Source: Geobacter sp. SVR (GTDB lineage Bacteria; Desulfobacterota; Desulfuromonadia; Geobacterales; Pseudopelobacteraceae). From it: a stretch of DNA of 64,000 nucleotides. Both the position numbers and the translations under genes were made by a program. Each line of letters begins with the position of its first letter. Position 1 is the first letter of the stretch. The stretch covers positions 4,122,501 to 4,186,500 of the forward strand of contig NZ_AP024469.1 of assembly GCF_016865365.1 (NCBI RefSeq), read 5' to 3'. This document shows positions 19,479-61,373 of the stretch, piece after piece. The notes under the pieces are model-generated. The model was not told where the DNA came from. It searched no databases and saw only the letters and a program-made list of their open reading frames with translations.

Positions 19479-20684
19479 TCAAGCAGCCTTTTTCCAGGCA
19501 TCTTCCACTGTTTTACCAACCACTTCACTTGCAGTCCTCAATGTATCTTGCTGTAGGTGGGCGTAAGCGCGTTGCGTCACTGCCACACTCGAATGTCCCA
19601 ACAGGTCTTTGACTTGGTAGATATCAACTCCAGCGTTAACAGCAAGTGACGCAAACGACCGGCGGAGGTCATGCGGTCTGAGGTCGTTGAGTTCTGCCCT
19701 TGCCATCGCCCGCGCCAGAGGCTTGCGCACATCAACGAGATGACCGTTTCCTACACGAGCAGGAAAAACCCACGGACAACCGGGCACAGCTTCTGCGTGG
19801 ATCTTTTTCAGCAATTCGTGTGCAACGCTATTGAGCGATACCATGCGTGAGCGCCCGTTCTTTGTGTACAGCAATCGGATACTCCCCTGATCGAGATCCA
19901 CTTCCGACCAGGGAAGGCTGAACAACTCCATCTTGCGTACCCCTGTAAGCAGAAGGAGCTTCAGGGCATTCGCTGTAGTCTTGCCTGCCTCAACATCAAG
20001 AGCTTCCAAGAAGCGGGTTAACTCTTCTCCGGTGAGGTATCGGTGGCGAGGGTCGGCTTCTTTGTACTTTTTGACACCCTTGACAGGGTTTCGCTCCAAA
20101 TACCCCCACTGAATCGCCAGAGAGAAAAGCCGGGACAGGAGAGCCAAGTACCGATTGGCCGTTGACGCCGAAAGCTTTTTGTTGATCGCCGCGTGCAGCT
20201 GCATCACGTCACGGGTTGTAATCTCGGGAAGAGGAATCTTTCCCATCGCCGCACCGATCTCGCGCCTCAGCTTTGACTCGTCGTCCTGCCAAGAGCGCTT
20301 GTGCTGCTGGGCATAGGGTAAGTAGTGCTCCTTGGCGAATTCGCCCAATGTGGGGACGCTACGCACTCGCTTGCGCTCGTCAGCCGGATTCTGGTCATGG
20401 GCAAGTTGGCGCTTGTTTTCGTGAACCATCTGCCGAGCATCTGCCACACTGAGACTTGGATATTCACCAAGCTTCATCATCCGCTTGACGCCGCGAAAGC
20501 GATAACGATGGTAAAAGTACTTGCGGCCCGACTTGCCGACCGCCAACTTGAGCCCAACAACCTCTGTATCGCTGTATTCCATAGTAGTAGAAGCCGCTCC
20601 CTGATCAAGTGGCGGGAGCGCATCAATCTGTCTATGCGAAAATCTGAACTGCCTGACTATGAGGTCTTTCTCCTCGTGCTGCAT
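19479..20684 (-). CDS. Tyrosine-type integrase of the tRNA-Lys element
   Basis: 401 residues. The N-terminal DUF4102-like arm-binding domain (about 15-95; TEVVGLKLAVGKSGRKYFYHRYRF, KLGEYPSLSVADAR) precedes a core-binding SAM-like domain and a catalytic domain. The domain carries Arg in LLLTGVRKMEL, HDLRR, LGHSS and the Tyr in QRAYAHL. It is the P4-type integrase family that uses tRNA genes. ATG at 20684 follows AGGAGG. Its stop lies about 130 bases from attL, pointing toward the tRNA. Confidence 0.96.
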   Translation of the reverse strand: MQHEEKDLIVRQFRFSHRQIDALPPLDQGAASTTMEYSDTEVVGLKLAVGKSGRKYFYHRYRFRGVKRMMKLGEYPSLSVADARQMVHENKRQLAHDQNPADERKRVRSVPTLGEFAKEHYLPYAQQHKRSWQDDESKLRREIGAAMGKIPLPEITTRDVMQLHAAINKKLSASTANRYLALLSRLFSLAIQWGYLERNPVKGVKKYKEADPRHRYLTGEELTRFLEALDVEAGKTTANALKLLLLTGVRKMELFSLPWSEVDLDQGSIRLLYTKNGRSRMVSLNSVAHELLKKIHAEAVPGCPWVFPARVGNGHLVDVRKPLARAMARAELNDLRPHDLRRSFASLAVNAGVDIYQVKDLLGHSSVAVTQRAYAHLQQDTLRTASEVVGKTVEDAWKKAA

Positions 20685-56364: not shown

Positions 56365-56586
56365 ATGAAGGCAGATGATGGTTTAGTTCGTGGGTAGAGT
56401 TGCCGCGACACCGGGCGGAATTCCTTCAAATCCCAGCTTCTGTTCCAGCAGATAGGTTCATCTGCACGTCCAACATGGCTGGTCAGCAGGTGCAGTTTAT
56501 TTTTGGCTATCCTGATTTCTTTCCACCGGCAGTTTCAGGGGAGTCAGTAGGGGGCAATTTGATAATTTGAAAATGGGAGGCACTGA

Positions 56587-56682
56587 GATGTTGCTTGTTA
56601 TCTGTTGCTCGCCGATGCCCTGATTGCTGCCACTGCCCTGGCCACACGCGCGGCGGACATGCGTATTAAGAAGAGTGTATGA
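56587..56682 (+). pseudogene. Remnant of a VapC-like PIN-domain toxin
   Basis: The frame from 56587 to TGA at 56680-56682 reads LLLADALIAATALATRAADM. D-x-LIAATAL is the conserved third acidic block of VapC toxins. Everything upstream of this C-terminal end is missing, and no antitoxin is seen. The rest of the 56365-56859 gap has no gene. Confidence 0.5.
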
Positions 56683-56689
56683 AAATGCT

Positions 56690-56719
56690 TTGAAATTGGT
56701 GTGTTCTCAAGTGTATAAG
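56690..56719 (+). promoter_or_regulatory. Candidate promoter upstream of the STAND ATPase
   Basis: TTGAAA (56690-56695), 18 bases, TATAAG (56714-56719), about 140 bases before the ATPase ATG. It lies outside the candidate invertible segment. Confidence 0.4.
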
Positions 56720-56844
56720 TGATGCATAGTTGGTTGTGATTGAATAGTCGAGGCAGGGAACTCTCATGCTACGGCTGGTTTCGTGCGACGAGGGCTTGGA
56801 ACGAGCCGCGTTGGTTTGGGAGAGTTGAACATCTTAGGAACGAA

Positions 56845-56862
56845 GGATAACTAAAGATTATG
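56845..56862 (+). repeat. Inverted 18-base site, copy 1, at the start of the STAND ATPase
   Basis: GGATAACTAAAGATTATG, the last three bases being the ATPase start codon. An exact inverted copy is at 60406-60423. It contains ATAA and TTAT arms around the seven bases CTAAAGA, the kind of layout used by tyrosine recombinase core sites. Confidence 0.85.
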
Positions 56863-59331
56863 TTGCAAGCTCTGCTGCCATGCCAGGCTCCCATTGCAGA
56901 TGATATGCTGGCGCATTTAAAGGCATCTGACAAAAAAGTTGCGGTACTGAAAGGTTCTTCGGGAACTGGCAAGTCCTTTATAGCCAAGATGATAAGCGAG
57001 TACTGGACCAGGAACGGTAACAATTGCTGCCTGTACTTTACCGGCAACGTGATGTGCTCGACACGACCATTCGGGCTACTGGAAGATGTACTAAACTTCG
57101 AAATCAAAAACATGCAGACGATTGCTGAGGAAGGCGTTGTAGAAGCGGCAAAGGATGCTCCTTTTATAGGAAACACACTCTCGTTCCTTCTCAAAAAACG
57201 TGCTGAACAAGCTGGCGCGCAGTTTCCCACTGCCACAGGCTGCCCTGAGGCAGATATTGCAAGAAAAATGGCGTTCTTCATAGGACGGAAGAATCCACTT
57301 ATAATCTTAGACAATTTTCATTGGACAGATCGCAGCACCATGGATTTCTTCGCGACTCTGGTTCGTATTGGTTTCACAGAAGGAGGACTTTCCCTCCAGC
57401 ATGCTAAAATCATGATCGTTGCTACGCCCGCGCAGTCCGATGAGTTTGCCACAGATGCACTGCATGCTATTTCGTCCTATCCATCAGCTCAAACGTTTAC
57501 CACCAATGATGTCGGTATCGCTGATTTTAACCTCGCACTACGACACTTTGGTATTGCCGCCATCCCTGATAACACAGCAAACGCGCTGTACGCCATTACA
57601 TCAGGCCATTTAGAGATACTTAAGATGTTAGGCGAATATCTAAAAAACGGAGGACGTATAGAGCCTGCGGGATCAAAAAAGAACAGCTTCCTGGAATTTA
57701 TGCTAAAGGAGCGTTTGAGGCGGGAAGGAGTCCCGGGGAGCTATGTCTACGAGGTGTTGAAGACCGCTTCGGTAATTGGACTCTCTTTCGACTATGCGGA
57801 GATAGATTGCCTCACGAGGAAAAAAGATTTCTCCCTGTCACCTATTATTAAAAAAGCAAATGACCTTTCACTGATAAAGGAGGAATCAGGGCGGTATTAT
57901 TTCGCCCATGAAATCATCAAAGAAGTCTTCCAATGTAAGGCAGAAGGGAAAAGACATGAACTGATGCTGAGCTTCGTTAATTGCTTGCGCCTGTTGAAAC
58001 CTGCAGACCTGCCACGACGTGCGGATTTTGCCTTTGAAGCCGGGGCCGATCGTGATGCGCTGCATTACTATATCCTCAGTTGTCTTCAACTGCTAAGGGA
58101 TGGCAAGTCGATGTCACCCTTGGCGTCGAACCGGCTTTTGAGCTTGATAGAGCTTTACCCTGACGAGGCACTTTATTACCACTCGATGCGAAAGGGATAC
58201 GAGCTGTTTATAAGGAAGGACTATCCTAGCGCAATGAGCGCAATAGCTGCAATTGAAGAGGTGTACAGTGGAGCATTGAACGCCGAGAAGGACTACCTCT
58301 TCGCCCTATGCTCCTCAAAGTCCGCTGAGCGATCCAAAAAGATTGAGTCCATTCAGTTGCTTGAGTATTGGAATCTCTCCTCGTTTCAGGAGAGCGAGGG
58401 AGAGTTATGGAGTAGGCTCGCTGCTACCTTGCTGTCACTCTACGTCCACGTCGGTGACAATACAAAAGCAAGGCTCATCGAGAAGCAGATCATGCATTTC
58501 CTATCGAAGAGGCTAAAGTTCGACACCAATGCCGAAGTACAGATAAATATCATCCGAAGGAAGGCTAATGCAATTCACTCCCCTGAGGTTGCAACGTCAA
58601 GGACGGAGAAGAGCGTCGCCTTCTTTAGCAAACGCAACACGGTGGGGATACCTTTGTATCCCGTTCAACTTTACATGTCTCTTTCGAATCATTCTGGCAA
58701 TCTCACGACTCTCGGGCAGTTTACGGCAGCTTTTGAGACCGCAGGTAGAGCTTTGTCTCTTCTCACTACCATCCCGGAGGCAAACTTCCCGAGGGATGAG
58801 ATTCCGGCGAATAATTACGCTGTTGCTGGTTTCTATAGCGGGTTACTGGGCGCTAAAGAAGGAACCCTCATTTTGAAGCAAACGCTTCATTCATGCAACT
58901 TTTGCGACAACTTCATTCTTCGCAACAATCTGGGGGTGCTTTTGGCACTTCAGGGGCAGTTGAAAGAGGCTAAGGACGAGCTTACGGCTGCTTATCAAGA
59001 TCTCTGTTCGACTGATGGCGATGATTTTTTCGCGTATTACCTACTCAGTAATCTTGTCGGAGTAGAGGCAATAGGCGGAGATAAGATTTCTGCAAGAAAA
59101 TATTTTCTCTCTCTGCAGAATTTGCAGCCGGGCATCCTGTCTTGGGAACTGCCCCATCTGGAACTCAGATGCAGGCTGCTGGACTGGGCCATCGATAACG
59201 TGGAACCAAAGACCGGGCAGGAATGGATGCATGCCCTTTTTGCCATTGATGAGGATGGTCTCGGTCCCTCGTGGAAGTATCTAGGCTTGGGATTTATTAT
59301 GTCAGATCTCCAATTTTGGTCAGAGTCCTAG
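56860..59331 (+). CDS. STAND-type AAA ATPase with TPR-like C-terminus
   Basis: 823 residues. NTPase domain about 10-300: Walker A GSSGTGKS at 32-39 and Walker B LIILDNFHWTDRST, the form seen in MalT, AfsR and adenylate-cyclase-associated ATPases. A winged-helix-like region follows (SGRYYFAHEIIKEVF), then a long helical TPR-like half (about 440-820). No output domain (cyclase, kinase or LuxR) is attached at either end. Codon use is AT-richer than its neighbours; one counted line (57841-57900) is about 37% GC. It is convergent with the ATP-grasp gene, overlapping its end by 12 bases. Confidence 0.85.
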   Translation: MLQALLPCQAPIADDMLAHLKASDKKVAVLKGSSGTGKSFIAKMISEYWTRNGNNCCLYFTGNVMCSTRPFGLLEDVLNFEIKNMQTIAEEGVVEAAKDAPFIGNTLSFLLKKRAEQAGAQFPTATGCPEADIARKMAFFIGRKNPLIILDNFHWTDRSTMDFFATLVRIGFTEGGLSLQHAKIMIVATPAQSDEFATDALHAISSYPSAQTFTTNDVGIADFNLALRHFGIAAIPDNTANALYAITSGHLEILKMLGEYLKNGGRIEPAGSKKNSFLEFMLKERLRREGVPGSYVYEVLKTASVIGLSFDYAEIDCLTRKKDFSLSPIIKKANDLSLIKEESGRYYFAHEIIKEVFQCKAEGKRHELMLSFVNCLRLLKPADLPRRADFAFEAGADRDALHYYILSCLQLLRDGKSMSPLASNRLLSLIELYPDEALYYHSMRKGYELFIRKDYPSAMSAIAAIEEVYSGALNAEKDYLFALCSSKSAERSKKIESIQLLEYWNLSSFQESEGELWSRLAATLLSLYVHVGDNTKARLIEKQIMHFLSKRLKFDTNAEVQINIIRRKANAIHSPEVATSRTEKSVAFFSKRNTVGIPLYPVQLYMSLSNHSGNLTTLGQFTAAFETAGRALSLLTTIPEANFPRDEIPANNYAVAGFYSGLLGAKEGTLILKQTLHSCNFCDNFILRNNLGVLLALQGQLKEAKDELTAAYQDLCSTDGDDFFAYYLLSNLVGVEAIGGDKISARKYFLSLQNLQPGILSWELPHLELRCRLLDWAIDNVEPKTGQEWMHALFAIDEDGLGPSWKYLGLGFIMSDLQFWSES

Positions 59332-60408
59332 GATTCCGGCAGATGAAGCGGATAGTGCCAGCCACGTTCCCAAAAGATCTGCGTGGCGCAACGACAACTG
59401 ACTAAAGAGGAAGGAACAGGAGCTAAAGGTTGTGAGATGGGGATTGGTGGACACATCAGTAATGTAACTATCTCCGCCTTCTGTAATTCTGAAATCGATG
59501 CGTCCTATTGCAGTAATGCCAAGTATTTTGGCAGCATCGACTGCTGTAGAAATGACAGTTTCAGCGGCTGGGCCCTCATATTTGTAGAACTCGTAACTGT
59601 CGTTATAGACCCTGTCGTAGGTGAGTATCTTCTCGCCCAGGAGAGGGTTGCCGTCCAGCTGTATTCCGACTGGGAAAAAGGACAAGTAGTTCCTGTGGCA
59701 AAAGACAGGCACCTCCACTTCAAACCCTTCAATAAACTGCTGGACGGTGACAGGCTGCTGAAAGAGACTGCTCAGTGACTTGATCTGGCTATCCAGGTCA
59801 CGGCTATACTCGACTATAGAGGTCTCAGTGATCCCTATGCTGGCTGATTCATACGTTGGTTTTACTATGACCTTCATTCCTTCCCGAGGGGGGCTGGCGC
59901 CAGCCCAACCAGAGGTTTCGGAATAAAGCCAGCTTCCTGCAACTGAAAGGCCTAAAGCAGCGAGAATCTTGTTGTAGTGATACTTATGGCGGCAGAGGCT
60001 GACTACATACGGATTGGAGCCGGTGACTGAGATTCTATGGAGATTGCAGAAGGCCGGGATTAGTGACTTTCTTCCTGGACCAACCCCATTCTGAGCTGTG
60101 GTGTAGACAAGGTTAAATTTTTTCGCCTTGGACTTGAATCTTCCTGTTATGACGTCCATGATGAACTTGTCTTCATCGAGATATAGATCGGCGTAGATGC
60201 CCAAACTTCGTATAGCGTACAGAATTTCCTCGATCTCTCCTTCGGAGAAAAACTCGGTGTCGATGGAATGGGCGGCGTAATCGACGCCTTTCTCTGTCCC
60301 ACTTTTGGTATTTGCTACAACAGCTACCCTGAGGTCGGAGCTTATATTCTGTAGTTCTCTTAGATACCGTCTTATCACCTCTGAACCTGCAGGCACGGAA
60401 TCATCCAT
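59320..60408 (-). CDS. ATP-grasp protein related to D-alanine-D-alanine ligases
   Basis: 362 residues. Rossmann-like N-domain (LRVAVVANTK, FNLVYTTAQNGVGPGRKSLIPAFCNLHRISVTGSNPYVVSLCRHKYHYNKILAALG), ATP-grasp domain with MKVIVKPTYESASIGI, VTVQQFIEGFEVEVPVF, and the metal/ATP end IGRIDFRITEGGDSYITDVSTNPHLT. It would join a carboxylate to an amine with ATP; substrates are unknown and it is not a standard Ddl. It begins six bases after the recombinase stop and is AT-richer than it. Confidence 0.87.
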   Translation of the reverse strand: MDDSVPAGSEVIRRYLRELQNISSDLRVAVVANTKSGTEKGVDYAAHSIDTEFFSEGEIEEILYAIRSLGIYADLYLDEDKFIMDVITGRFKSKAKKFNLVYTTAQNGVGPGRKSLIPAFCNLHRISVTGSNPYVVSLCRHKYHYNKILAALGLSVAGSWLYSETSGWAGASPPREGMKVIVKPTYESASIGITETSIVEYSRDLDSQIKSLSSLFQQPVTVQQFIEGFEVEVPVFCHRNYLSFFPVGIQLDGNPLLGEKILTYDRVYNDSYEFYKYEGPAAETVISTAVDAAKILGITAIGRIDFRITEGGDSYITDVSTNPHLTTFSSCSFLFSQLSLRHADLLGTWLALSASSAGILGL

Positions 60409-60423
60409 AATCTTTAGTTATCC
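60406..60423 (-). repeat. Inverted 18-base site, copy 2, between recombinase stop and ATP-grasp start
   Basis: On the minus strand reads GGATAACTAAAGATTATG. It contains the recombinase stop (GAT AAC TAA) and the ATP-grasp ATG. Identical to copy 1 in opposite orientation, 3.5 kb away. Confidence 0.85.
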
Positions 60424-61373
60424 ACCATTCGCTCCCTCCCGAACCCCCTCCTCGGATGCCTGCTCTGCAAAGCCTGGCGCTGAAACTCCTCCGTCACCTG
60501 GGCATAGATCTGCGTGGTCGTGATTGAGCTATGGCCGAGAAAGGTCTGGATATAACGGATATCCACCCCGTTCTCCAGAAGCTGTGTAGCCACGGAATGG
60601 CGAAACATGTGGGGCGTGATCCTCTCCGGTATCTCTGCGTCCAGCACGTATTTCCTGAGCATGAACCTGACCGACTGTTCCGAGAAGCGTCGGCCGTCAC
60701 GGTTGATGAAGAACCACCCCGCCGTTTCGATTTCCCGGCGGTACAGGCCCGCATAGCAGGTCAAGGCACTCACGGTTTCTTCGCTGCACAGGGGAATGAT
60801 CCGCTCACGCGTCCCTTTACCCATGATCCGGACACTACCCCTCTGGAGATCGACGTCTTCTCCGCGCAGGCAGCATAGCTCAGCCACCCGCACCCCTGCT
60901 GAGAATAGCAGTTCGAGCACGGCGATATCACGCGCCAGGGTCCGTCTGTTGGGAACTCCAATTTTCAGGGTCTCATCTTGCAACGCATACATGGAGTCGA
61001 AGAGGTGGGCAATGTCGTGACGGGGTATGGTCCGGGGGAGGTGCTTGCCTTCCTTGATCCGGATCCGGATCTTGCGGAAGGGGTTGACGAGGATGATATC
61101 CTCAAATTCAAGCTGGTTGAAAAATGCCTTGAGGGTGGCGAGTTTGCGCTTGATGGTCTTGGGTTTGTTGCCGGTGGAGACGTGCTTGATGTAATCCCGC
61201 AGAATATGCTTGTCAATCAAGTCGATGCGGATGCCGGGGTATTCGCGGCCGAGGAATTCGGCGAACTGCCTGAGGTCGATCCGGTACGCCTTGATGGTCT
61301 TGTGATTCAGGTTCTTCTCGTATTGGCAGTGAAAGATGAACCCGTCAATATGCTCCTTCATGATATGCGTCAC
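60414..61373 (-). CDS. XerD-like tyrosine recombinase
   Basis: 319 residues. N-terminal SAM-like core-binding domain (about 5-90; FIFHCQYEKNLNHKTIKAYRIDLRQFAEFL) and catalytic domain with LLFSAGVRVAEL (Arg), a beta-hairpin Lys in MGKGTRERIIPL, HMFRHS, LGHSS and Tyr in TTTQIYAQV. All active-site residues are visible. GTG at 61373 follows AGGAGG by five bases; ATG at 61361 is the alternative. The GC content (about 60% in one counted line) is chromosomal, unlike the two downstream genes. Confidence 0.93.
   Translation of the reverse strand: MTHIMKEHIDGFIFHCQYEKNLNHKTIKAYRIDLRQFAEFLGREYPGIRIDLIDKHILRDYIKHVSTGNKPKTIKRKLATLKAFFNQLEFEDIILVNPFRKIRIRIKEGKHLPRTIPRHDIAHLFDSMYALQDETLKIGVPNRRTLARDIAVLELLFSAGVRVAELCCLRGEDVDLQRGSVRIMGKGTRERIIPLCSEETVSALTCYAGLYRREIETAGWFFINRDGRRFSEQSVRFMLRKYVLDAEIPERITPHMFRHSVATQLLENGVDIRYIQTFLGHSSITTTQIYAQVTEEFQRQALQSRHPRRGFGRERMVDN

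Follow-up and report, generated by a model that had tools for sequence, protein, structure and literature searches.

In the 64-kb stretch of the Geobacter sp. SVR genome analyzed here (hereafter the window), two convergent genes are enclosed by a pair of identical inverted sites and adjoin the gene of a tyrosine recombinase, an arrangement that we interpret as a candidate module for DNA inversion and cassette exchange. The 18-mer GGATAACTAAAGATTATG is present in two exact, mutually inverted copies, which form the distal recombination site on the forward strand (56845-56862) and the proximal one on the reverse strand (60406-60423). No further match with three or fewer mismatches occurs in the window, shuffled sequences give a mean of 0.03 and never two, and the next-best match in the whole 4.7-Mb genome has three mismatches. 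The distal core, ATAA-CTAAAGA-TTAT, spans positions 56847-56861, and the ATG of the first enclosed gene terminates the inner half of this site. This gene (56860-59331, forward strand), the distal arm of the putative invertible segment, encodes a STAND-type P-loop NTPase of 823 residues with C-terminal TPR-like repeats; its match to AAA_16 (E=1.8e-6) stays under the Pfam cut-off, yet full-length orthologues are found in the same architecture. The recombinase-proximal arm (59320-60408, reverse strand) encodes an ATP-grasp ligase of the D-Ala-D-Ala ligase type of 362 residues, supported by its match to Dala_Dala_lig_C (E=4e-14) and by orthologues. The proximal core lies at 60407-60421, and its site holds both the ATG of the ATP-grasp gene and the stop codon (60414-60416) of the recombinase gene (60414-61361, reverse strand). 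The latter encodes a putatively dedicated XerC/D-like protein of 315 residues that matches Phage_integrase (PF00589, E=2.1e-39) and retains all six catalytic residues of the R-K-H-R-H-Y set (R158, K182, H251, R254, H277, and Y286).

These observations bear out the original prediction, made from the letters of the window, in most of its descriptive claims: the exact inverted 18-base pair with inward start codons and the recombinase stop codon in the right copy, the converging STAND and ATP-grasp genes with a 12-base overlap, the intact recombinase, and the ATAA and TTAT arms around a seven-base spacer, a geometry that proved to be conserved among relatives. The interior is also AT-richer than the recombinase gene, as had been claimed, although the size of the contrast was overstated: the GC content is 48.1% inside and 55.9% in the recombinase gene (56.5% for the window), not 37% and 60%. 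Ahead of the distal site lies a 480-base-pair (bp) intergenic region (56365-56844, forward strand), for which a promoter near 56.70 kb had been proposed; the sequence TTGAAA-18-TATAAG at 56690-56719 does resemble the consensus and may be a promoter, but it is not listed in a stricter scan.

The window recombinase scores 237 and 228 bits against the XerC and XerD equivalog models, below their cut-offs of 335 and 330, while two separate Xer-like genes with 37% and 34% identity to it lie elsewhere in the Geobacter sp. SVR genome. Its score against the integron integrase model integrase_gron is 100.5 bits, for a cut-off of 265. A scan of 84,980 species genomes revealed relatives with 46-81% identity in a Desulfuromonadales bacterium, Lentimicrobiaceae, Dysgonamonadaceae, Delongbacteria, and others. 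Using a profile built from nine members, the family is found sparsely, in 2 of 297 genomes of the window's phylum, 8 of 298 Campylobacterota, 6 of 344 genomes of one Bacteroidota order, and 1 of 13 in the Delongbacteria phylum. In a phylogenetic tree, these proteins stand apart from the host Xer proteins and group largely by phylum, although long branches make the deeper nodes uncertain, particularly where the Paenibacillus and Methylobacterium proteins attach. Judged by these scores and this tree, the recombinase defines a family distinct from host XerC and XerD. Elsewhere in the window, a tyrosine-recombinase-like reading frame (19530-19967) with 35% identity to P0001 over about 150 residues borders a stretch of lower GC content (about 20-34 kb). 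A phage origin was considered and rejected, three scans of viral contigs with the recombinase or ATP-grasp queries having found no relatives. One unverified fecal phage scaffold (MT835527.1) terminates in a weak ATP-grasp homologue (L076:7923-8801, where L-numbers denote the loci fetched in this analysis and G-numbers the genomes), and the core site is absent in the 9 kb of this scaffold that were read.

The site accompanies the recombinase across phyla. In four relatives, the motif variant GATAACTA-NNN-ATTATG follows immediately 3' of the recombinase stop codon; in three of them, a single inverted copy lies on the same contig and the rest of the genome contains no match, and the contig of the fourth (L004/L022) stops one base past the motif. 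This position of the site is kept at 46-52% recombinase identity. The usual layout, in which the recombinase is followed by ATAA-N7-TTAT with an inverted copy 1.5-7 kb away, is present in the window's phylum, Campylobacterota, Bacteroidota, and Delongbacteria; in Bacillota and Alphaproteobacteria it occurs with more distant recombinases. Alignment of the cores of 20 elements yields ATAA-N7-TTAT; the outer half-site follows the pattern AATAAnnG and the inner one reads TTATG. The 7-bp spacer is the same within each pair, although one TTAT arm deviates at its final base in L055 and L069, and it differs between elements (CTAAAGA, CTATTTA, CTAAATA, CTAATAA, CTAGGGA, TAGGATA, TAAAGAA, TAGGTAA, TTAAGAA, CTATAAA, CTATATA, CTATGAA, and TCGGGGA, among others).

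Over all fetched loci, exact core pairs amount to 25 inverted entries, 24 of them distinct because L011 and L025 are the same locus, and no direct ones, compared to 0.05 expected for each orientation in Markov-simulated sequence; this count includes loci related by descent (L014, L015, and L016) as well as L021, which was found via the motif itself. A fairer sample is given by the 17 loci (L053-L069) that were fetched with the recombinase profile alone, without using the site. An inverted pair adjoins the recombinase in 13 of these, at its 3' end in 12 cases and at its 5' end in one. The search for homologous recombinases without the site, which could have spoken against the original prediction, thus came out in its favor, most homologues carrying a version of the site. 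In three assemblies, contigs break off close to the core: those of L022 and L058 directly at it, and both contigs of genome G172 (L019 and L020) 12 bp further on. These breaks fit a population holding both orientations or alternative cassettes, a circumstantial indication, as repeats alone also break assemblies. For some family recombinases (L008:4109-5857, L057:1508-5452, and L023:6003-6019), the site or cassette is located 5' of the gene and not after its stop codon, suggestive of a second layout. Exact inverted sites in genome G150 enclose an interior (L021:7131-8914) that contains no open reading frame of at least 80 residues and whose two ends are mutually related; it is probably a decayed cassette of two homologous genes.

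Comparison of closely related plasmids provides direct cases of inversion. The Aliarcobacter plasmids pACRY43158 (A. cryaerophilus ATCC 43158) and pM830MA (another strain of the same species) are colinear on either side of the sites, for 9,967 bp before the recombinase-side one (99.89% identity) and for 5,518 bp past the far one (99.87%), whereas the 3,458-bp interior, with STAND-like and ATP-grasp genes, is 99.91% identical in the opposite orientation, and the breakpoints coincide with the sites AATAATAGGATATTATA. Likewise, between pAFAEC (A. faecis) and genome G897, an interior with a GNAT and a methyltransferase gene is inverted at 94.7% identity, while the recombinases are colinear (90%). 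Inversion, one of the two alternatives raised by the original prediction, is therefore demonstrated by comparison in these relatives, where both orientations occur between the same flanks; the Geobacter sp. SVR element may be active as well. Compared with pACRY43158, an A-run in the STAND gene of pM830MA (L016:1940-4407) lacks one base and the gene is thereby split, which may reflect sequencing error, decay, or slippage, three causes that are indistinguishable here. The Aliarcobacter plasmids also carry a segment of about 570 bp twice in opposite orientation (L014:1723-2293 and L016:6766-7337; 98.6-99.0%), unrelated to the core sites.

The other alternative, an exchange of cassettes at the start-codon site, is likewise seen in relatives. 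Plasmids pAFAEC and pACRY43158 have both flanks in common (97.6% and 90.8%), and their homology stops at the sites, between which the interiors are unrelated. Among seven loci of the Aliarcobacter group, the conserved piece extends from about 20 bp before the recombinase ATG through the site, and the downstream part varies. A cassette encoding a DNA methylase and a specificity subunit, with both its sites, is 97.5% identical over 3,991 bp in the two different contexts of L062 and L054; in L054 (8111-13739) it forms a tandem with another cassette whose spacer differs, the two being 70 bp apart and beside one recombinase. The histories of cargo and recombinase disagree as judged by sequence identity: the closest counterparts of the window ATP-grasp protein are from Paenibacillus and Methylobacterium (36% and 34%), and the one from Delongbacteria has 26-28% identity to it, while the recombinase shows 35% and 33% identity to the former two and 51% to the latter. 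These comparisons demonstrate exchange in relatives rather than in the Geobacter sp. SVR genome itself, for which a limited comparison within the genus found no syntenic empty site, the right flank matching at about 70% with a response-regulator gene in relatives. Another locus (L065:2491-4439) carries a second inverted pair flanking one glycosyltransferase-like and one membrane gene.

The cargo found in the window recurs in distant hosts. Among 72,556 plasmid records, the STAND protein matches only Paenibacillus and Methylobacterium plasmids, and the ATP-grasp protein only these and pACRY43158. On the Paenibacillus and Methylobacterium plasmids, the two genes are again convergent, adjoin a tyrosine recombinase, and lie between perfectly matching inverted sites (30 and 17 bp) that contain ATAA-N7-TTAT cores. 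The ATP-grasp gene is recombinase-proximal in the window, Delongbacteria, pM830MA, Methylobacterium, and L064, and the STAND gene in pACRY43158, Paenibacillus, and L063, which additionally encodes a protein with a tRNA-editing domain. The only full-length STAND orthologue among 200 Campylobacterota and 334 Bacteroidales genomes lies inside such an element; partial matches (profile A4) in the same genomes come without site pairs and without recombinase. Other cassettes carry a GNAT with a methyltransferase, a methyltransferase with a membrane protein, a radical SAM facing a membrane protein, a CAP12-type TIR protein and glycosyltransferases opposite a STAND protein, glycosyltransferases opposite an Mrr-like nuclease/NTPase fusion, an EcoRI-type methylase with a GmrSD/HNH enzyme, or a type IIG enzyme. 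Most consist of two convergent units, each starting at a site. In the restriction-modification cassettes all genes point in one direction, and inversion would therefore amount to an ON/OFF change. Phase-variable immunity, as suggested by the original prediction, may be one function; some cassettes encode restriction-modification or a TIR effector, but others a glycosyltransferase, radical SAM, or methyltransferase. Against known defence models, the window STAND protein gives only weak P-loop matches and the ATP-grasp protein none.

From the co-occurrence of site and recombinase, the identity of spacers within pairs, and the natural inversions and replacements in relatives, we conclude that the locus is very probably a site-specific inversion and cassette-exchange module with a dedicated XerC/D-like recombinase and two inverted dif-like sites. 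The recombinase would bind both sites, and crossover within the identical spacer, just 5' of the start codon, would invert the segment. Because the spacer precedes the ATG, inversion would leave both coding sequences unaltered and change only their 5' context. One gene would then lie behind the recombinase, with its ATG a few bases past the recombinase stop codon, and the other behind the intergenic region at the far site, so that the STAND and ATP-grasp genes would be expected to alternate between two expression states. Over evolutionary time, cassettes with inverted pairs would be replaced or added at the sites. We presume that the neighboring recombinase, and not host XerCD, carries out the inversion, and that expression changes with it. 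In the window, the position of the ATP-grasp ATG right behind the recombinase stop codon suggests translational coupling. A hairpin covering the site can form in the recombinase-side transcript of the Aliarcobacter group and of L067, and L059 has a strong hairpin between the recombinase stop codon and the site, suggesting that the recombinase-side slot is quieter in these elements. Over all elements, predicted folding is more stable on the recombinase side (mean z of -1.49 compared to 0.03 on the far side, Wilcoxon p=0.006), with the caveat that the Aliarcobacter loci are not independent.

Several points weigh against this interpretation. The evidence for inversion comes from relatives and not from the Geobacter sp. 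SVR locus, and the replacement of interiors could also come from homologous recombination in the flanks. Among the profile-found loci, L060, L061, and L068 (which has an in-frame stop) contain no readable pair, and L058 ends at a contig edge. Promoter-like scores are no higher than in shuffled sequence on either side, and the recombinase-side hairpin, which might silence one slot, stands out in no elements other than L059, L067, and those of the Aliarcobacter group, being absent in the window. The wide range of cargo behind conserved recombinases and the mobility of a cassette with both its sites, which may even stand in tandem beside one of different spacer, would also fit sites that serve mainly as points of exchange, as in dif modules or recombinase-mediated cassette exchange, with inversion as a by-product of no regulatory role; the lack of a clear ON side in the promoter scans agrees with this. 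Nevertheless, both coding units begin at the sites in nearly all cassettes, as if switching of the 5' context mattered, the recombinase-side hairpins in three lineages point to unequal slots, and the STAND/ATP-grasp orientation is mixed among relatives, so that we regard an exchange-only role as possible but doubtful.

The resemblance of the core to dif (ATAA-N6-TTAT) raises the question of whether host XerC and XerD, both present, act on the inverted sites as in Acinetobacter dif modules, leaving the neighboring recombinase another task. This appears improbable, since the spacer is 7 bp and not 6 in every pair, and recombinase and site co-occur across phyla while most XerCD-bearing genomes have neither. 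Finally, both copies of the 18-mer lie at translation starts, where purine-rich and ATG-containing sequences recur, and could in principle be a chance or translational-signal repeat uninvolved in recombination. The shuffled-sequence counts and the 24 inverted versus no direct pairs led us to reject this reading, which we hold to be highly improbable; natural inversions break at homologous sites, and the Aliarcobacter plasmids contradict it for the family.

The proposed inversion and exchange module shares features with several known systems. In the phage Mu G segment, the P1 C segment (Gin/Cin), and the Moraxella pilin inversion (Piv), which rely on serine or DEDD-type recombinases, an invertible segment with two alternative inward genes likewise adjoins its recombinase; there, related alternative genes are joined to a constant part, whereas here a tyrosine recombinase is associated with two unrelated complete genes and loci exchange their cargo. 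Integron cassettes point in the same direction between direct attC sites. As in integrons, a tyrosine recombinase lies beside the insertion point of exchangeable cargo, but the pairs described here are inverted, none is direct, and there is no attC-like folded site. Tyrosine recombinases and inverted repeats also underlie the phase switches fim, RecV in C. difficile, and PsrA/hsdS in S. pneumoniae (PMC5903667, PMC7096588), which invert promoters or recombine specificity-gene segments and not complete coding units with start codons in the sites. In the dif modules (pdif modules) of Acinetobacter plasmids, inversion was seen where two inversely oriented sites had the same or almost the same spacer (PMC13141974); spacer identity within the pairs is thus as expected of an active system. 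These modules also resemble the present elements in that Xer-type sites of opposite orientation, with an ATAA...TTAT core and identical spacer, flank a cargo that is replaced and shuffled (PMC13141974), but their spacer is 6 bp rather than the 7 bp of all pairs here, where the recombinase is encoded beside the cassette, the start codons lie in the inner half-site, and at least six phyla are covered. The closest known kinds are Acinetobacter dif modules for mobility and the spacer rule, and Mu G-type segments for the alternative inward genes. The literature searched contains no description of this arrangement, and single loci may have been detected earlier in surveys of gene-altering inversions. 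One such survey was reportedly conducted by Milman et al. in 2023.

On balance, we favor the broader view that these elements represent a so far unnamed, cross-phylum class of mobile flip cassettes, in which a dedicated recombinase acts on dif-like sites, unrelated coding units swap expression slots, and the core doubles as translation start. Cargo (STAND/ATP-grasp, restriction-modification, glycosyltransferase, TIR, and others) would move between loci and lineages as a unit, and spacer identity would stop neighboring cassettes from recombining together. The signature of inverted ATAA-N7-TTAT pairs with identical spacer and an adjoining recombinase would permit a systematic search for phase-variable cargo, including restriction-modification systems, which standard annotation overlooks because either orientation looks like ordinary genes. 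The compact recombinase and its short site may also offer a tool. The recurrence of one cargo poses the question of why a STAND NTPase and an ATP-grasp ligase stay on opposite arms of one switch across distant phyla. If our interpretation is correct, a self-contained switch-and-exchange platform would join the known means of bacterial genome plasticity.

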